Part shown: positions 19,986 to 25,869 of the stretch, one piece after another
Layout of the letters: each line of letters opens with the position of its first letter
How positions within the stretch are numbered: the first letter of the stretch is position 1
From: a virus
Direction: 5' to 3' (one strand)
Virus record (IMG/VR): IMGVR_UViG_3300035130_000047
Coordinates: 1 to 25,869 of that record
DNA length: 25,869 nt
Notes under the pieces: generated by a model
Databases searched by the model: none
What the model saw: the letters and a program-made list of their open reading frames with translations, nothing else
Told to the model about the DNA's origin: nothing
Translations under genes and position numbers: made by a program

Positions 19986-20204
19986 TCACCAGTCATACCG
20001 CTTTAAAACTCTCCAATCATGCTTCTCAAATATCTCAACTATACTGCGGAGAAACAATTCAACCGCCAATTCATATTCTGGGTCGTCGGAATAAAATACC
20101 AAATCGCAAAGTGTATCTTTTAAATCCTCATATAACCCATCTAAACCATCCCAGAAACCATCGTCATGTTCCAGAGAAAAATCGCCGCCACCATCTTCTT
20201 TCAT
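19986..20204 (-). CDS. Small acidic protein, first gene of the leftward block
   Basis: The 72-residue protein starts at ATG 20204 with AAGGAG about 10 nt upstream. It is strongly acidic (DGFWDGLDGLYEDLKDTLCD; about one residue in three is Asp or Glu) and helical at the end (LAVELFLRSIVEIFEKHDW). Small acidic early proteins in phages may mimic DNA or bind host proteins, but nothing specific shows that here. It lies directly behind the consensus promoter at 20240-20268. Confidence 0.55.
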   Translation of the reverse strand: MKEDGGGDFSLEHDDGFWDGLDGLYEDLKDTLCDLVFYSDDPEYELAVELFLRSIVEIFEKHDWRVLKRYDW

Positions 20205-20239
20205 AGTTTCTAATACTCCTTTTATCTTACCTCCCTAAT

Positions 20240-20268
20240 AGTATAACATTTTAAATCGTGCCTGTCAA
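20240..20268 (-). promoter_or_regulatory. Strong leftward sigma-70 promoter
   Basis: On the minus strand TTGACA (20268-20263), a 17-nt spacer and TATACT (20245-20240) form a near-consensus promoter. A TG sits one base before the -10. Transcription would start about 20233 and reach the acidic gene at 20204 after a leader of about 30 nt. Confidence 0.8.
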
Positions 20269-20594
20269 GTACTTTTTTTACCCAAACCCGTAATGCTTCC
20301 AAAATGTTCCCTATATGAGAATGGGGGTTATCTCCTCCCCCACCCTGCCAATGGGGTAAACGGGTCTCTCTTGGGATGTTGTGAAGGAGCGGGGACAGGG
20401 AGGGAGGGGTAAGCGTGGGCGTACGCCGGCAGTGTTTCTACTGGTTATTAGTAATATATATATGTATTAGGGAGTGATGGTGAGTGTTGTATAGTGTATT
20501 AGGTAGAGTGGTGTTGTTGTTACCCGCGGATTTGGTTTGACTGTGGGGGGGGGTTGAGGTATGTTCTGTGTGTCAATGGCGTCTCCGGTGATTT
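20269..20594. other. Non-coding G-rich divergent control region
   Basis: No convincing gene is present between the leftward promoter and the repeat cluster. The plus strand is unusually G-rich. It holds a G-quadruplex motif (20391-20409), a GGCGTACGCC palindrome (20418-20427), an alternating AT stretch near 20455-20462 and a G9 run (20545-20553). A 60-codon minus-strand frame at 20467-20649 lacks protein-like composition. The region could include a replication origin or an early-gene switch. Confidence 0.6.
20391..20409 (+). other. Canonical G-quadruplex motif
   Basis: The plus strand reads GGGG-ACA-GGG-A-GGG-A-GGGG, four G-tracts with loops of 3, 1 and 1 nt. Such short loops are known to favour stable intramolecular quadruplexes. 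It lies between the two divergent promoters in an otherwise AT-rich genome. Confidence 0.65.
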
Positions 20595-20672
20595 TAGGGG
20601 GTGATCTTATCTCACCCCTAAGGGTGATATTGGGGGTTAGAAATATCACCCCTTAATTCACCCCTAAAGGGG
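20595..20672. repeat. Cluster of TCACCCCTA-type repeats (operator or iteron candidate)
   Basis: Copies of TCACCC(C)(C)TA are seen on the plus strand at 20612-20620, 20647-20655 (TCACCCCTTA) and 20658-20666, and on the minus strand at 20595-20604 (TCACCCCCTA) and about 20619-20627 (TCACCCTTA). Two form inverted pairs (TCACCCCTAAGGGTGA). They lie directly upstream of the rightward promoter candidate at 20674-20702, where a repressor or initiator could bind. Confidence 0.55.
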
Positions 20673-20673
20673 A

Positions 20674-20702
20674 TTGCATTTAGTTTATCGGCGGGTTATG
20701 AT
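20674..20702 (+). promoter_or_regulatory. Candidate rightward early promoter
   Basis: TTGCAT (20674-20679), a 17-nt spacer and TATGAT (20697-20702) give a good -10 and a weak -35, typical of an activated or regulated promoter. RNA would begin near 20709, before a 7-bp hairpin (AACCGCT/AGCGGTT, 20721-20741) and the first rightward ribosome site. Confidence 0.45.
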
Positions 20703-20760
20703 GTACTTGAAAAAATTAATAACCGCTGGCGGATAGCGGTTAAAGAGGAGGTAATGAGAC

Positions 20761-20919
20761 GTGATAAAAAGAGAATACTTAAAAACGGTTGAAAACTTAG
20801 GATGTTATCATTGTAAATTCGTAGATAGAGTAGCTATCGGAAGGGGTCAAGCTTGCTGCACTTATCCTGGAAAAATTCAACTAACTAAAAATGGTAAATG
20901 TAAATCAAAAAGGAAATAG
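20761..20919 (+). CDS. Small Cys-rich protein (GTG start), first rightward gene
   Basis: The 52-residue frame starts at GTG 20761, 9 nt after GGAGG. An ATG seven bases earlier is out of frame and stops after 12 codons. Cysteines at 15, 18, 32, 33 and 47 (NLGCYHCKF, QACCTYPG, GKCKSK) suggest a metal-binding fold. The C-terminus is basic. A hairpin at 20721-20741 lies in its leader and could modulate translation. First genes of early operons are often regulators, but no DNA-binding motif is recognised. Confidence 0.6.
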   Translation: MIKREYLKTVENLGCYHCKFVDRVAIGRGQACCTYPGKIQLTKNGKCKSKRK

Positions 20920-20944
20920 CTGGACAAGGATATAAGGAGAAACA

Positions 20945-21115
20945 ATGAAACAACAAAAAATTAAAATTGAGTTAACAAAGGATGAAATTGACTTAATCAC
21001 TCTTGCCTTAGAAGAAAGAGTAAGAAACATTATGGTTAATTGGATTAATGCAGAAGATAGAAACCGAGGGGCTTTAGAATGTCGCGAACTATCCAAGAAA
21101 CTTTGTAATGTATAA
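20945..21115 (+). CDS. Small helical protein of unknown function
   Basis: The 56-residue frame follows AAGGAG. It has one short strand (KIKIELT), a helix (KDEIDLITLALEERVRNIM) and a second charged helix (AEDRNRGALECRELSKKL). The strand-helix-helix order is compatible with a small ribbon-helix-helix protein but is not diagnostic. It begins MKQQK, as does the following gene, perhaps from a duplicated start region. Confidence 0.55.
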   Translation: MKQQKIKIELTKDEIDLITLALEERVRNIMVNWINAEDRNRGALECRELSKKLCNV

Positions 21116-21130
21116 CTTTTACAATCCGAA

Positions 21131-21168
21131 ACCTGGGGAACATCCCAGGTATACAGGTTTAACCTGTA
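21131..21168 (+). promoter_or_regulatory. Tandem hairpins, attenuator-like, before gene 21198
   Basis: ACCTGGG (21131-21137) and CCCAGGT (21144-21150) form a 7-bp stem with a 6-nt loop. TACAGGTT (21152-21159) and AACCTGTA (21161-21168) form a perfect 8-bp stem with one central base. Because the arms share ACCTG/CAGGT, alternative pairings between the hairpins are possible. They lie about 20 nt before a GGAGGTG ribosome site. The second could also be a palindromic operator. Confidence 0.45.
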
Positions 21169-21197
21169 CTGATGAGGATTTAAATGGAGGTGAAAAG

Positions 21198-21602
21198 ATG
21201 AAACAACAAAAACAAGGGTTGATCAGTGAAGACAACCTAAAGTGTGCACAGAGAGTAGAAGGACATCTTAAATCAAGGTTAAACGCCCTATCAATCCTCT
21301 GGGATAGGGAGTGTGAGGGAATAGAAGAATATCATGAAGAGTTTGGCGCTCTTTCTGAGTATGGATTATGCTTTGATTACGTAGAGCCTAACTCTTTTGA
21401 AGGTCAAAAGGAGGGTTACTATAGGTACCAGATATCCTGGGGCGGCCCTTCTGATGAATTCCGGTTTTTTGTCAATCTAGACAAATCCATACACAGGATT
21501 GAATACTGGTTTCTTGATTGGTTCGATGGGGCACATAGGAAATTAAGGGGAAGGGACTTTAAATTACTAGAAACTATTTTTCATTGGCACATGCAGGTTT
21601 GA
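21198..21602 (+). CDS. Conserved-type phage protein of unknown function
   Basis: The start at ATG 21198 is set by GGAGGTG five bases upstream, giving 134 residues. The frame is open back to ATG 21108, but that start lacks a ribosome site and would cover two hairpins. Distinctive segments are GLCFDYVEPNSFEGQKEGYY, RYQISWGGPSDEFRFF and IEYWFLDWFDGAHRKLRG. I recognise this pattern as one that recurs in phage genomes, without an assigned function. It appears to be a soluble alpha/beta protein. Confidence 0.65.
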   Translation: MKQQKQGLISEDNLKCAQRVEGHLKSRLNALSILWDRECEGIEEYHEEFGALSEYGLCFDYVEPNSFEGQKEGYYRYQISWGGPSDEFRFFVNLDKSIHRIEYWFLDWFDGAHRKLRGRDFKLLETIFHWHMQV

Positions 21603-21604
21603 CA

Positions 21605-21745
21605 ATGGCAGAAAAGACTAAGATTTGTCGCGTAAAAATCATACGCTGTGTGTACTGTGGGTCAATTATAACCACTAATGATAAGTATTGCACGGCTTGC
21701 GGTAAAGAAAATTTAAGGTATTTAAAAAGAGTAAAGGAGGATTAA
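21605..21745 (+). CDS. Small zinc-ribbon protein
   Basis: The 46-residue frame starts two bases after the previous stop. C15/C18 (RCVYCGS) and C29/C32 (YCTACGK) make a standard short zinc ribbon with CG after each knuckle. The C-terminus is basic and carries the GGAGG site for the next gene, whose ATG overlaps the stop (TAATG). A nucleic-acid or protein-binding adapter is plausible; the target is unknown. Confidence 0.6.
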   Translation: MAEKTKICRVKIIRCVYCGSIITTNDKYCTACGKENLRYLKRVKED

Positions 21746-22404
21746 TGAAAAAACAAGAGATTTTAAATGGAGTTGATAATGTAAGGCACTCATGGTTTGT
21801 TAAACCCAACACTCTATTCATTGAGTTAGAAAATGGGGATAAAATCACAAGACTATACGAAACAAATATTGTTATTAACAAAAAAGATGGAACCACAATT
21901 TTAAACTCAGGGGGTTGGAGAACACAAACAACAAGAGAGCGGTTAAATAATTTGACCCCTTTTCACATTTATCAAGAAAAGCTCGTATGGTATATTAGTA
22001 CCCCTAAATCTCAAACGTTTCAGTTTTATGATGGAATAACCTTTAATAGAGATTACACCTTAAAAGGGAGGGTGGTTGACACAAGAAAGGGGATAGAAAA
22101 AAGAAAGTCGATAATAAAGGGGTATGTCAAATTATTAGACAATATAAACCAAATTCCAAACCCATCACCTGGTGATTGCTGGTATTGTTTATTACAAACA
22201 GAAAAAAGTCAATCATTAGGGGACTCTTTTAAAGACACAGATCATTTATGGAGCCATTTAAAAGAAGGATACTTATTCGGATCTATTATTTGGAACAGCT
22301 TAAAAGAGAACGGCTATAATCCTAGTTTTGTGATTTTATTGAATGTGAAAGACGTTATAAAACGAAGTTTAAGAAACTATTTGTATAAAAGGTTATTATA
22401 TTAA
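21745..22404 (+). CDS. Phage protein of unknown function (SGGWRTxTT family pattern)
   Basis: The 219-residue protein has two parts. Residues 1-100 are beta-rich with ILNSGGWRTQTTRERLNNLT followed by a short WYIS strand. Residues 120-219 are helical and include PSPGDCWYCLLQTEKSQSLG, TDHLWSHLKEGYLFGSIIWN and SLKENGYNP. Both motifs recur together in uncharacterised phage proteins. The Cys-Trp-Tyr-Cys and the DHLxxHL pair could bind a metal. It is coupled to the zinc-ribbon gene upstream. Confidence 0.65.
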   Translation: MKKQEILNGVDNVRHSWFVKPNTLFIELENGDKITRLYETNIVINKKDGTTILNSGGWRTQTTRERLNNLTPFHIYQEKLVWYISTPKSQTFQFYDGITFNRDYTLKGRVVDTRKGIEKRKSIIKGYVKLLDNINQIPNPSPGDCWYCLLQTEKSQSLGDSFKDTDHLWSHLKEGYLFGSIIWNSLKENGYNPSFVILLNVKDVIKRSLRNYLYKRLLY

Positions 22405-22448
22405 CCGAAATTACCATCAAACCCAAAGGATGCCCAAGAAAGAAATGG

Positions 22449-22760
22449 TTATTTTCGAAAATTGGCATACTTTCTTAATCCTAATTTTGGAGAATAATAA
22501 TAACAGGGAACTCCACATGCAGATAATCTATCAAAAAGTAAAAACTGAGGTTTACTTAATCTTTGACCACTCTTCTTTACTTCACATAAACAAAATGATC
22601 CGTCAGGGTGTAAAGCAAAAAAATCCGGCATACCTCTTTTGGTTACTACTGTATAACCTTTACTGTGTAAGGCATCATACGCCTCAGCCTCGTTGCTATT
22701 CTTTGGTTTTTTGTCTAATGTTCCACATGGCTTTCCATCAGATTGTCTCATTCCAGGCAT
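22449..22760 (-). CDS. VRR-NUC family nuclease
   Basis: ATG 22760 has GGAGG six bases upstream; the longer frame would begin inside the promoter, so 103 residues is right. The PD-(D/E)xK core is visible: E24/E26 in NSNEAEAYDAL, G43-x-P45-D46-F47, E60-V61-K62 after the strand FCLCE, and Q72 in KPQFLLF, then GVPCYYY. VRR-NUC proteins are nucleases of DNA repair and phage recombination and may act on branched DNA. It is the only gene in the right part that runs leftward, with a private promoter and palindrome. Confidence 0.85.
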   Translation of the reverse strand: MPGMRQSDGKPCGTLDKKPKNSNEAEAYDALHSKGYTVVTKRGMPDFFALHPDGSFCLCEVKKSGQRLSKPQFLLFDRLSACGVPCYYYSPKLGLRKYANFRK

Positions 22761-22779
22761 TTTATACCTCCATACAACT

Positions 22780-22808
22780 ATTATATCATTTAAGAAGTAT
22801 ACCGTCAA
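22780..22808 (-). promoter_or_regulatory. Strong promoter for the VRR-NUC gene
   Basis: On the minus strand TTGACG (22808-22803), a 17-nt spacer and TATAAT (22785-22780) are near-consensus. RNA would start around 22773, just before GGAGG (22771-22767), so the leader is very short. This also fixes the gene start at 22760. Confidence 0.8.
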
Positions 22809-22828
22809 GTAGATTTCGCGAAATCTAC
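22809..22828. promoter_or_regulatory. 20-bp perfect palindrome (operator candidate)
   Basis: GTAGATTTCGCGAAATCTAC is perfectly symmetric over 20 bp with a TCGCGA centre. It abuts the -35 box of the VRR-NUC promoter. A dimeric repressor or an activator could bind here. No DNA-binding protein is assigned. Confidence 0.65.
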
Positions 22829-22834
22829 AGGGTA

Positions 22835-22860
22835 ATATTATTCTCTCTAAAGAATAATAT
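22835..22860. repeat. AT-rich 10-bp inverted repeat
   Basis: ATATTATTCT (22835-22844) and AGAATAATAT (22851-22860) are perfect inverted arms around CTCTAA. There is little GC in the stem and no U-tract, so a terminator is unlikely. An easily melted or protein-bound site next to the palindrome and the YGTACR array fits an origin or control region. Confidence 0.5.
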
Positions 22861-22959
22861 ATAAAAATAGAGTATTATGTTAAACCCTAAGAGATAAAAA
22901 ACCTATGGAAAAAACAAACAATTTGCAACGGCCACGGCCACCGCCCCATATGGCAAGGC

Positions 22960-23029
22960 GTACGAAAGTGTACAAAAACGTACAAAAGTGTACAGGTCGT
23001 ACATATTGTACAATGTGTACGAAACGTAC
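22960..23029 (+). repeat. Eight phased YGTACR boxes (iteron, operator or partition-site candidate)
   Basis: GTAC occurs at 22960, 22970, 22980, 22990, 22999, 23008, 23017 and 23026, so the spacings are 10, 10, 10, 9, 9, 9 and 9 bp. All eight copies fit YGTACR; spacer bases vary but are A-rich. The change from 10 to 9 and the variable spacers exclude a simple coding repeat. Near-helical spacing puts the sites on almost one DNA face, as in arrays bound cooperatively by ribbon-helix-helix repressors, partition proteins or replication initiators. It ends about 15 nt before the ribosome site of the next gene. Confidence 0.75.
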
Positions 23030-23058
23030 AACACTAAAAAGAAAGGAGTTAAGTTAAA

Positions 23059-23421
23059 ATGAGTAAAAATAAAATTGAAAAGATTGAAATTAGGTGGGCA
23101 TATGATGATTTATTTGATCCGGAAATAAGCTTAGATTCCCAAAAAGATAAAGACTTAGTTGATTCCGGAGAAGTTGTGCCCTATAGTTGCACGGCAGAGG
23201 CTATGGTATCATATCCTATTGGTAACGGATCAAGAAGACTAGAGTGGTTAAGTAGTAGTGGTTTATATGGAATTTTACTTGACAACTCACAACTCAGTGT
23301 TGACGATAGACGAGAATGTGCAGAGGTTCAAATAGAGTGGCTTAGGGAACACTTGTTACATTTTAATGTCGAAATGAAAAACTTTAATAAACTTGCAAGG
23401 GAGGCCATAGAAAATGGATAA
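23059..23421 (+). CDS. Unknown protein behind the YGTACR array
   Basis: The 120-residue protein follows AAGGAG. Segments are IEIRWAYDDLFDPEISLD, AEAMVSYPIGNGSRRLEWLS, SSGLYGILLDNSQ and a C-terminal helix (CAEVQIEWLREHLLHFNVEM). The acidic N-terminus and WLSSSGLYGI centre resemble uncharacterised phage proteins. Its leader contains the YGTACR array, so it may be controlled by, or encode part of, the system that binds it. No direct motif for DNA binding is visible. Confidence 0.6.
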   Translation: MSKNKIEKIEIRWAYDDLFDPEISLDSQKDKDLVDSGEVVPYSCTAEAMVSYPIGNGSRRLEWLSSSGLYGILLDNSQLSVDDRRECAEVQIEWLREHLLHFNVEMKNFNKLAREAIENG

Positions 23422-23686
23422 AGAAACAATGGAAGAAAGGTTATTTTGGGTGCATATCTTGCGCATGGCGATTGAAAAAACTTATAAGGCTAAAGGTGAT
23501 ACGGCGAGAAAGTGGAGGCCACATGTAAGGAAAATAGTTAAGTACTTTCTAAAAATGTTGTGGATGCCCCCTTCTTACCAGTATATATTACTGTGTATCA
23601 TTAGTAAACATGAGTTTGAATTACCGGATGAAAAATATATTATCCACGGTAAACAAACGTCAACGGCTCTGTTTAAAACAAATTAG
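23414..23686 (+). CDS. Small basic protein of unknown function
   Basis: The 90-residue protein overlaps the preceding stop by 8 nt. The N-terminal half is helical and basic (MEERLFWVHILRMAIEKTYK, then GDTARKWRPHVRKIVKYFLK), consistent with nucleic-acid binding. The C-terminus is unremarkable. Its stop lies at the foot of a 9-bp hairpin. No family is recognised. Confidence 0.5.
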   Translation: MDKETMEERLFWVHILRMAIEKTYKAKGDTARKWRPHVRKIVKYFLKMLWMPPSYQYILLCIISKHEFELPDEKYIIHGKQTSTALFKTN

Positions 23687-23713
23687 TCAGAAGTGGGAAG
23701 CCTTACTTCTGAC
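23686..23713 (+). terminator. Hairpin after gene 23414 (no U-tract)
   Basis: GTCAGAAGT (23686-23694) and ACTTCTGAC (23705-23713) form a perfect 9-bp stem with a 10-nt loop, starting on the last base of the stop codon. AACTTAGGAGG follows, so it is not a classical intrinsic terminator. It may protect the mRNA, weakly attenuate, or space the next ribosome site. Confidence 0.4.
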
Positions 23714-23729
23714 AACTTAGGAGGAATTT

Positions 23730-23891
23730 ATGAAAAAAGTAAAAGTAAATATTCGGGGATTAAAAAGATATGTAGGATATTCGGACCTAATAACAACTTA
23801 TTGTTGTTCGTCACAACCCACTTACTTCATTAAGTTTCCGGCGATAGAATATTCTGGTTATTTTTCTATTTATGATGTGAGGGAATTATGA
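23730..23891 (+). CDS. Small protein of unknown function
   Basis: The 53-residue frame has a strong GGAGG with 6-nt spacing. It opens MKKVKVNIRGLKRYVGYSDL and contains TTYCCSSQPTYFIKF and YSGYFSIYDVREL. It is aromatic, probably beta-rich, and ends in a 4-nt ATGA overlap with the next frame. No family is recognised. Confidence 0.5.
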   Translation: MKKVKVNIRGLKRYVGYSDLITTYCCSSQPTYFIKFPAIEYSGYFSIYDVREL

Positions 23892-24082
23892 AAATTAACA
23901 AATTTCAAATAGACTTTATAAGAGAAAAACCCATGAGAGTTCTACCCAATAGAATTTTAAGGCTAGAATTAACGATCTTAGGTTTGACATTATTAGTCAG
24001 TTTTTTTAAGACAAACTTCCATCTAAGAAAACATCATTTAATAATTCAGGTTTTTTGCTTCTATTTTTACTTAGCACGGTGA
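23888..24082 (+). CDS. Possible small membrane-associated protein
   Basis: The 64-residue frame is coupled (ATGA) to the preceding gene. It has a basic start and a hydrophobic stretch (LTILGLTLLVSFF), then an aromatic tail. The second half is AT-rich and not very protein-like, so the gene may be shorter than shown or decayed. Confidence is low. Confidence 0.35.
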   Translation: MKINKFQIDFIREKPMRVLPNRILRLELTILGLTLLVSFFKTNFHLRKHHLIIQVFCFYFYLAR

Positions 24083-24091
24083 GGTGAGAAC

Positions 24092-24289
24092 ATGAGTAAA
24101 CAAGACTATATAAAAGTATCTGACTTAATGGAATTTATCGAAATACAAAAAGCCGATGCCACTCGCAGGGCAACATTGCAGACTGAAGATGAAAGATATA
24201 TAGATGCTTATATAAGTATCGGCGAGCGATCCGGTTTTGGGATAGTTGAAAACTGGGCGCTTGAAAAGGCAAAAAAAAGAATGGTTTAA
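24092..24289 (+). CDS. Small helical protein of unknown function
   Basis: The 65-residue protein has GAGGTGAG upstream. It is acidic to neutral and helical (SKQDYIKVSDLMEFIEIQKA, then DERYIDAYISIGERSGFGIV), with a basic end (LEKAKKRMV). It is followed by an intrinsic-terminator-like hairpin, so it is the last gene of this transcript segment. Confidence 0.5.
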   Translation: MSKQDYIKVSDLMEFIEIQKADATRRATLQTEDERYIDAYISIGERSGFGIVENWALEKAKKRMV

Positions 24290-24312
24290 TACCACTGGAG
24301 AACATTAAATAA

Positions 24313-24337
24313 AAAAACGGTTGACAAAACCGTTTTT
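24313..24337 (+). terminator. Intrinsic terminator after gene 24092
   Basis: AAAAACGGTT (24313-24322) and AACCGTTTTT (24328-24337) make a 10-bp stem with a 5-nt loop; the 3' arm itself supplies a U-run, followed by ATTT. It lies 24 nt after the gene stop. The A-run on the other side could allow bidirectional use. Confidence 0.6.
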
Positions 24338-24349
24338 ATTTGATAAGAT
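24321..24349 (+). promoter_or_regulatory. Possible promoter overlapping the terminator
   Basis: TTGACA (24321-24326) in the hairpin loop region, a 17-nt spacer and TAAGAT (24344-24349) make a good sigma-70 match. The predicted start falls at or in GGAGG (24355-24359), which would leave almost no leader and weakens the call. It would drive the exported-protein gene. Confidence 0.4.
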
Positions 24350-24366
24350 ATTTTGGAGGATAAAAA

Positions 24367-24741
24367 ATGAGAAAAATAATTATTTCGGCGATTTTACTAG
24401 GATTAACATTTGGTACGTTAAGTGCCGATGTTAAACTGTTGATGGTTGGAACAAAAAGCCTTAACAGTGATGGGTATCAGTTTGGGTATAACCTAAATGA
24501 GCCAATGGATATACCATTTGTGGTAGTTGTGCTTATTAATACCTCTGATGTTTATCGTCAAGTACGCGTTCGTATAGTAATTAATAAGCAATTGGTTATT
24601 CGACGAGTAAAGGTTCAGCCAAACTCTATACACTCTTATTGGGTTGATGTCCTATCCCAAGCTGGATATAACAAAGCGATAGTTAAGATCGGTAAGGGTG
24701 AACGCACTCAGGTTGGGTACTTCTGTGCCCACGGGAGGTAA
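24367..24741 (+). CDS. Exported small protein with signal peptide
   Basis: The 124-residue protein has a classical Sec signal: MRKIII, a hydrophobic core to about residue 17, and a likely cut after TLSA20. The mature part is beta-rich (IPFVVVVLINTSDVYRQVRV, RIVINKQLVIRRVKV) with an Ig-like feel, and has one Cys (YFCAHGR), so no disulphide is expected. GGAGG lies upstream. A phage protein exported to the periplasm or surface may change host surface properties or exclude other phages, but no motif proves this. Confidence 0.65.
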   Translation: MRKIIISAILLGLTFGTLSADVKLLMVGTKSLNSDGYQFGYNLNEPMDIPFVVVVLINTSDVYRQVRVRIVINKQLVIRRVKVQPNSIHSYWVDVLSQAGYNKAIVKIGKGERTQVGYFCAHGR

Positions 24742-24743
24742 AT

Positions 24744-25466
24744 ATGTGCAGGGCATTTTCTGGGATAATTAATAAGAATGGGAGAGTTTTTTGGAAGCTT
24801 GGAATTGACTCTCATTCTGGAATTATTACACACTACCATATTAAGGACGATACTTATGATCCTAAAAACCTAAGGTTTGCCAAGTTTGAAATCACGCCAA
24901 AAAACAATAACTATTTATACCCAAATAAATGGACGTTTCGATTAGATGAATCAGTAAAACCATTGTGGTGGAATAAAGGGTATGAACAATTCTGTTTTGC
25001 GGCTAAAGATGAATGGTATAAAGAATTAGAGGAATATATTGTCAGGAAGCCTATTATTCATCCGTTTATGGACATAAAACCACCTAAAAAGATTACTGGA
25101 AAACATTTAGATTTACTTAGAAAGTGGTCTTCAGTCAGGTCTTCAGTCGGGTCTTTAGTCAGGGCCTCGGTCGGGCCTTCAGTCGGGGCTTCAGTCGTGT
25201 CTTCAGTCTGGGCTTCGGTCTGGGCTTCGGTCTGGCCTTCAGTCGGGGCTTCAGTCGTGTCTTCAGTCTGGGCTTTGGTCTGGCCTTATACTGGCTCATT
25301 TTTTAAGTTGCCAAAATGGGGGGGTGTAAAACACAAGAAAGGCGAGTACCCTTTTCAAGTTGCCGTAGACCTTTGGGAGATGGGGTTAGTTCCATCCTCT
25401 GACGTTAGGGTATGGAGACTATATGGTGGAAAAGATGGCGGGGTGCTATGGGAAGGTAAATTATAA
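24744..25466 (+). CDS. Unknown protein with central SVxA tetrapeptide repeats
   Basis: The 240-residue protein starts two bases after the exported-protein stop, with GGGAGG upstream. The N-terminal domain (MCRAFSGIINKNGRVFWKLG, then IDSHSGIITHYHIKDD, FEITP, WTFRLDE, PLWWNKG) matches a recurrent uncharacterised phage family. Residues 130-181 are 13 tandem units of S-V-(R/G/V/W)-(S/A/P). The C-terminal part (YPFQVAVDLWEMGLVPSSDV, then VRVWRLYGG) resumes an ordinary globular domain. The repeats may form a regular coil or stack. Function is unknown. Confidence 0.65.
   Translation: MCRAFSGIINKNGRVFWKLGIDSHSGIITHYHIKDDTYDPKNLRFAKFEITPKNNNYLYPNKWTFRLDESVKPLWWNKGYEQFCFAAKDEWYKELEEYIVRKPIIHPFMDIKPPKKITGKHLDLLRKWSSVRSSVGSLVRASVGPSVGASVVSSVWASVWASVWPSVGASVVSSVWALVWPYTGSFFKLPKWGGVKHKKGEYPFQVAVDLWEMGLVPSSDVRVWRLYGGKDGGVLWEGKL
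25131..25286 (+). repeat. 12-bp tandem repeat, 13 units, inside gene 24744
   Basis: The unit is close to TCAGTCNGGNCT. Thirteen units give 156 bp, all in frame. A longer segment of about 40 bp recurs exactly 60 bp apart (around 25176-25217 and 25236-25277), so a five-unit block was duplicated recently. Gain or loss of units keeps the reading frame, so the length can vary without breaking the gene. Confidence 0.85.
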
Positions 25467-25642
25467 TGCCGTATTATGTATATTTATGTGAAACCTGTGG
25501 ACGAATGGATGAGTTTTATCGGCGCGTAAATCAAAGGGATGGGGAACAAAAGTGCCAAACGTGTGGTACCATTATGGAGAGATTACCATCTACACCTAGC
25601 CTTAAGTTTATTGGTGACGGCTGGGGTAACAAGGAGGAATAG
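25466..25642 (+). CDS. FmdB-type zinc-ribbon protein
   Basis: The 58-residue frame begins on the last base of the previous stop codon. It opens MPYYVYLCETCGRMDEFY, has C8/C11 and C30/C33 (KCQTCGTIM), and continues LPSTPSLKFIGDGW. This order, with a four-Cys ribbon and a final FxGxGW, is typical of the FmdB family of small putative regulators. FmdB proteins are named for an amide/formamidase regulon, but most members have no proven role. Here it is a phage copy next to another zinc-ribbon gene. Confidence 0.75.
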   Translation: MPYYVYLCETCGRMDEFYRRVNQRDGEQKCQTCGTIMERLPSTPSLKFIGDGWGNKEE

Positions 25643-25833
25643 TGAAGTGTCCTGCGTGTTATAGCGGTTCTGCAGTATCTGTTTATGATAACCTAAGGCG
25701 GGAAGTATTCTGGTGTAAAATGTGTGGTTCAATATTCAGCCTGGTAAATGGGAAAATTAGCAGTAAATGTATACCATCTGCCATTTCAATGCCTCTGATA
25801 AAGGATTTAAGGGATATATTTAAAGATGACTGA
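25642..25833 (+). CDS. Zinc-ribbon protein (GTG start)
   Basis: The GTG at 25642 shares one base with the previous stop and follows AAGGAGG. The 63-residue protein has C3/C6 (KCPACYS) and C25/C28 (WCKMCGS), a two-knuckle zinc ribbon, then a short C-terminal helix (PLIKDLRDIFKDD). It may bind nucleic acid or a protein. It overlaps the next start by 8 nt. Confidence 0.6.
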   Translation: MKCPACYSGSAVSVYDNLRREVFWCKMCGSIFSLVNGKISSKCIPSAISMPLIKDLRDIFKDD

Positions 25834-25869
25834 TACAAGTTTTAAAGCATGGGAGCGACGTGGCAGTAA
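25826..25869 (+). CDS. Start of a gene cut by the window edge, possibly a nuclease
   Basis: An ATG at 25826 overlaps the preceding frame by 8 nt and reads MTDTSFKAWERRGS to the edge. The S/KxWERR opening resembles the N-terminus of phage Holliday-junction-resolvase-like or PDDEXK nucleases, but 14 residues cannot prove that. Confidence 0.3.
   Translation, partial: MTDTSFKAWERRGS

Follow-up and report, generated by a model that had tools for sequence, protein, structure and literature searches.

Eight tandem YGTACR boxes beside an AT-rich stretch in a metagenomic tailed phage: a candidate replication origin

Several described systems invite comparison with a tandem array of short DNA boxes. 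The replication origin of phage lambda carries four iterons of about 18 bp, MetJ boxes follow one another at a step of 8 bp and Omega heptads at a step of 7 bp, and partition sites are typically made of tandem short boxes with a near-helical spacing. The origins of SaPI/PICI elements are located directly 3' of the gene for the initiator helicase (PMC6092414, PMC7581432), and the putative origin of SCCmec Cch2 is characterized by very short iterons of 5 nt that are bound by the C-terminal domain of a self-loading helicase (PMC7581432). For most phages documented by metagenomes only, the replication origin has yet to be located.

The window analysed here is the whole of a 25,869-base IMG/VR record of a bacterial virus, which is probably a fragment. 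With its capsid and portal genes it is a tailed-phage genome, in which the structural genes (SU10-kind portal, head and tail) run leftward from about 20 kb. Pattern search and sequence confirmed the eight-box YGTACR array reported with its spacing in the initial annotation (Table 1). The boxes read, in order, CGTACG, TGTACA, CGTACA, TGTACA, CGTACA, TGTACA, TGTACG and CGTACA, all eight fitting YGTACR, and their GTAC cores begin at 22960, 22970, 22980, 22990, 22999, 23008, 23017 and 23026, with start-to-start steps of 10, 10, 10, 9, 9, 9 and 9 bp. Each core column holds 2.0 bits of information and the outer Y and R hold 1.0 and 1.2 bits, against 0.1-1.5 bits in the flanking and spacer columns; the view that conserved cores are set among drifting spacers is thereby upheld, GTAC itself being invariant. 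The window contains no second array of this kind, the 7 remaining YGTACR sites being scattered, and its total of 15 sites falls short of the 18.7 expected by chance, so that the word is not enriched and its clustering alone is unusual. With steps of 8-12 bp allowed, the longest YGTACR chain has 8 members in the window and at most 2 in 400 windows simulated by a first-order Markov model of the same dinucleotide content, and chains of any 4-mer reached 5 at best across 30 simulated windows. Since the 10-bp steps break codon phase, the array encodes no peptide repeat. A site of the NtcA type (GTA-N8-TAC) was considered and dropped, as it suits the 10-bp steps only and the 9-bp steps do not fit.

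Table 1. Coordinates of the array and its neighbours in the window
Feature	Coordinates	Strand	Evidence and remarks
VRR-NUC nuclease gene	22449..22760	-	Pfam PF08774; ATG at 22760 behind GGAGG
Sigma-70-type promoter TTGACG-N17-TATAAT	22780..22808	-	Consensus scan; faces portal side
Perfect 20-bp palindrome GTAGATTTCGCGAAATCTAC	22809..22828	.	Repeat search; adjoins -35 box of leftward promoter
AT-rich stretch, 79% A+T	22831..22905	.	Composition; proposed DNA unwinding element
GC-rich linker from AT-rich stretch to array (...ACGGCCACGGCCACCGCCCCATATGGCAAGG)	22906..22958	.	Composition
YGTACR array, eight boxes	22959..23030	.	Pattern search, chance test, near-twin in L274; proposed initiator-binding iterons
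Orphan gene, 120 aa	23059..23421	+	ORF; ribosome-binding site AAAGGAG; start 28 bp right of array

The array lies between two divergent genes and close to the most AT-rich DNA of the early region (20200-25869), where the 70-bp segments richest in A+T (81%) start at 22832-22833, about 55 bp from the array. The leftward promoter matches 11 of the 12 consensus positions and has a TG preceding its -10 box, and the adjoining palindrome is a possible operator; the consensus scan revealed no rightward sigma-70 promoter between the divergent genes. The leftward gene was assigned to VRR-NUC with a Pfam score just above the cut-off (E=2.4e-05, 24.8 bits vs 23.8). Nucleotide and protein searches returned no close relatives of the array region, the VRR-NUC gene or the gene at 23059, the product of which is without relatives in either phages or viral contigs, nor any relative close enough for the conservation of YGTACR itself to be assessed. 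A recognisable initiator or helicase gene is absent from the window, the fragment stopping at 25869 before any replication gene that could be recognised. Further to the right, a 240-aa ORF without family match (24744-25466) has a series of SVGASVVSSVWASVW-like repeats in its interior. The minimum of the cumulative GC skew is found near 20.3 kb, at the point where transcription diverges and not at the array. This point falls in a non-coding region of 550 bp (20210-20760) between the late and the early genes, in which TCACCCCT words recur alongside inverted repeats and which might itself contain an origin or control region.

A search with the portal protein identified 16 viral contigs at 38-46% identity. 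Among these, the portals of L106/L107 and of L108 are about 46% identical to that of the window. L106 (IMGVR_UViG_3300032171_000006) and L107 (IMGVR_UViG_3300032190_000010) were obtained from different samples and represent one phage, being 100% identical with different break points and overlapping at both ends, so that the map closes to a circle of about 43.8 kb. All three records carry an array in the interval that separates the early genes from those leading up to the portal, in the region that matches the window's, and upstream of a TTGACA-N17-TATATT promoter facing the portal, in the same direction as the window promoter. The cousin box is TTCTACA, which is not palindromic and is repeated head to tail at steps of 10-11 bp. 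In L107, a 260-bp block of 78% A+T separates this set from a second one, whose boxes run the opposite way (GTAGAAC), and in L108 a GC-rich stretch directly precedes the array, as in the window. Between L107 and L108, whose portal-region DNA is 81% identical, the boxes are kept while linkers and flanks drift. The suggestion that related phages share the array with its core was thus borne out in part: place, design and AT-rich neighbour recur between the window and its cousins, but the box itself differs, YGTACR in the former and TTCTACA in the latter. None of the cousin arrays is beside a recognisable initiator or helicase gene; the nearest candidate, about 6.5 kb off, encodes a protein of 340 aa whose matches are AbiEi_4/MarR-like and, weakly, DnaB-like, and for which structure prediction gave no reliable fold (pLDDT 33).

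Arrays of the YGTACR and TCTACA types were then scanned in viral contigs and bacterial genomes, coding repeats being removed. Among the families encoded close to non-coding arrays were AAA_25 (4 proteins), DnaG-type primase (3) and VapE (2); for the more distant proteins of the same loci, none of the three appeared among the best 25 of 45 families. In a targeted search for these genes, the accompanying arrays were on the 3' side throughout, in most cases at 1-151 bp from the stop codon. Non-coding TCTACA arrays were found within 500 bp 3' of an AAA_25, DnaG-type or VapE gene in 12 of 35 cases and on the 5' side in none of the 35. This 3'-side position (<=500 bp) is shared by 2.2% of the intergenic positions in the scanned loci, and by our own arithmetic the probability of such a count by chance is about 1e-11, for three families that were picked after seeing examples. 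For non-coding YGTACR arrays, the corresponding figure was only 2 of 36 (L080 and L274). That of L274 is a near-twin of the window array, with eight YGTACR boxes at steps of 9, 10, 9, 10, 10, 10 and 9 bp beginning one base past the stop codon of an AAA_25 helicase gene, the product of which is related to RSF1010 RepA (1g8y, E=4e-9) and displays a weak MarR-like match at its C-terminus. The YGTACR arrays of L080 and L337 follow AAA_25 helicase genes at 3 and 6 bp, and those of L378, L380 and L381 are located inside genes for phage replication initiation proteins (PHROGs 270, 26426 and 678, "O-like"; best E 1e-22 to 1e-40). YGTACR clusters also occur beside unrelated genes, namely terminase (L063) and adenylosuccinate synthetase (L329), the latter being a dense cluster upstream of the gene in a Roseovarius genome (L329:3290-3460). 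No C-terminal domain common to AAA_25, DnaG-type and VapE proteins that might read the box was found, matches being confined to each family, and the open-licence literature searched yielded no account of such a class of arrays downstream of RepA or VapE genes.

Several other matches of these scans were set aside. The first YGTACR matches were dominated by coding Gly-Val-Gln repeats, mostly in large phage contigs, with a fixed 9-bp period and AGG/GGG spacers, and the very long 9-bp YGTACR tracts of L012, L018, L041, L062 and L085 resemble collagen-like coding repeats of the same kind. A large number of genome matches, mostly from Streptomyces, were excluded as tandem duplications or coding tracts. 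A non-coding region of L374 (300-830) combines six YGTACR boxes at exactly 10 bp with a repeated AAAATCGTGA and several GTTAAC words; a homologue of the window protein at 21108 is encoded in L374, but this is a weak link between the two arrays, the family being scattered in unrelated Vibrio phages.

The initial annotation had left the choice between an operator, a centromere-like site and a replication origin. The comparative evidence favours the last, because the boxes adjoin an AT-rich element, the cousins match, and look-alike arrays occur behind or inside replication genes. Judged from sequence, the array would thus represent, with somewhat better than an even chance, the initiator iterons of a phage replication origin having 22831-22905 as its unwinding element. 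It shows what is generally expected of an iteron origin, that is, repeats with a conserved core, a step of about one helical turn and the proximity of an AT-rich element. The initiator, most likely a helicase, or a partner of one, that has a winged-helix domain and is encoded in the missing part of the genome, would bind in a row to the eight boxes, about one to each helical turn; the resulting nucleoprotein would strain and open the AT-rich stretch, where the replicative helicase would be loaded, and the flanking promoter may also be regulated by the same box-binding protein. The binding protein, the melting and the start of replication at the array are what we infer from its anatomy and its association with replication genes. 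Evidence against an origin comes from the lack of an initiator gene in the window and beside the cousin arrays, from the different cousin box, from the small share of non-coding YGTACR arrays behind the three replication families and the YGTACR clusters next to unrelated genes, and from the location of the GC-skew minimum elsewhere.

With SaPI/PICI origins, the window shares multiple short iterons beside an AT-rich region. The two sets that flank an AT-rich core in these elements are seen in the cousin L107, whereas the window has one set. Look-alike arrays in other phages are likewise directly 3' of helicase genes; the neighbours in the window are instead an opposite-strand VRR-NUC gene and orphans, with no adjacent rep or pri helicase gene and no PICI gene content in what is a tailed-phage genome. 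Binding of the iterons by the element's own helicase is a candidate feature only, the presumed initiator gene lying outside the fragment. The window resembles a lambda-type origin in having an array of putative initiator boxes next to AT-rich DNA, and the position of iterons inside an initiator gene is found in other phages, with YGTACR in the O-like genes of L378, L380 and L381; the window differs in its eight 6-bp boxes at steps of 9-10 bp, which are non-coding, with no O-like gene. Because the gene position that defines each of these two types was looked for in the window and not found, the array cannot be filed under either. The putative origin of SCCmec Cch2 is comparable in its very short iterons, but consists of three AAGTG iterons behind cch2, in another element and with another helicase family.

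An operator is rather unlikely by comparison, yet it is the alternative with most in its favour. A repressor or activator would cover the eight boxes cooperatively and control divergent early transcripts, leftward through VRR-NUC and rightward through the gene at 23059. The array is indeed placed between a good leftward promoter and a rightward gene start, the cousin arrays are just upstream of their promoter, the palindromic YGTACR suits a dimer, and some YGTACR clusters accompany non-replication genes (L063, L329). Against this, the leftward -35 box is 150 bp downstream of the array, no rightward consensus promoter was found between the divergent genes, and eight boxes are many for an operator, which would moreover leave unexplained the opposed sets around the AT-rich block in the cousins and the repeated association with replication genes. 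This reading retains some likelihood because the array occupies a divergent promoter region in both the window and the cousins, and the roles of operator and origin can coexist. A ribbon-helix-helix protein had been put forward as the binder, with the small proteins at 20945 and 23059 as candidates. This proposal found no support: structure prediction for the 56-aa product at 20945 gave a hairpin of two helices (12-34 and 36-54) and no strand, with a pLDDT of 87, neither protein has a Pfam match above the cut-off, and no ribbon-helix-helix protein was recognised among the small proteins of the window, from which part of the early region is missing. MetJ boxes and Omega heptads resemble the array as contiguous short boxes with a fixed step and a conserved core, but their steps of 8 and 7 bp, respectively, are shorter than the 9-10 bp of the window, and one symmetric MetJ-type dimer per box is unsuited to the cousins because their box is non-palindromic and arranged head to tail.

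The remaining explanations are far less probable. A centromere-like partition site (parS/parC or tubC type) recognised by a small adaptor protein would agree with tandem short boxes at near-helical spacing, but is very unlikely, as no ParA, ParM or TubZ-like motor gene was found among the scanned proteins of the window, an incomplete genome, or among the cousin early proteins examined. It is still less likely that the array is a functionless product of chance or recent slippage. Tandem YGTACR tracts with identical spacers do exist in coding or low-complexity DNA; here, however, GTAC is constant although the spacers differ, the chain is far longer than chance produces, and the cousins keep an array. 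Least likely of all, the repeats might act as RNA or protein, through a leader structure or the 50-aa ORF that spans the array (22905-23057). The + strand RNA folds somewhat better than shuffled sequences (z = -2.1), but the 10-bp steps shift the frame, the ORF has neither a family match nor a clear ribosome-binding site, and the non-palindromic box of the cousins would not keep such a fold.

The association was also approached in reverse, from 17 records of RepA-family helicases in named phages and plasmids that were chosen regardless of arrays. About half of them have dense short repeats behind the helicase: TATACA and ACTACA boxes in Roseobacter phages CRP-831 and CRP-811, respectively, GGTACA in Idiomarinaceae phage 1N2-2, GTGACA in 16 copies in Rhizobium phage RHph_X2_25, GGTTCA in two Alteromonas phages, TGCGGCA in a Klebsiella plasmid and, behind the gene following the helicase, CGGACA in one Vibrio phage. 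No such repeats were detected behind the helicase in Baka, Jflix2, GB2A, 82E33.2 and two metagenomic phages. The helicases of CRP-811 and CRP-831 resemble each other in their C-termini but go with different boxes, which parallels the situation of the window and its cousins. It is conceivable, at a little less than an even chance, that NNTACA-type arrays with steps of 9-11 bp form a widespread and largely unannotated class of phage origins, in which unrelated initiators (RepA/AAA_25 helicases, DnaG-type primases, VapE and O-like proteins) would be used, box and initiator would co-evolve, and the bases preceding TACA would change between relatives; the window array would be a member located away from the helicase. 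Were these arrays origins, their signature (a conserved box of 5-6 bp, a step of 9-11 bp, an AT-rich neighbour, and often a position behind a helicase gene) would locate origins in many genomes together with the matching initiator, and cousin pairs with different boxes, such as CTACA vs GTACA here and CTACA vs TATACA in CRP-811 and CRP-831, would reveal changes of initiator specificity.

Arrays behind RepA-type helicase genes often include a short perfect hairpin (for example ACCCTTTAGGGT or ACACCTATATAGGTGT), as observed in L392:3551-3725, L407:3051-3236, L395:3509-3773 and L274:350-530. This hairpin is possibly a common origin or terminator element.
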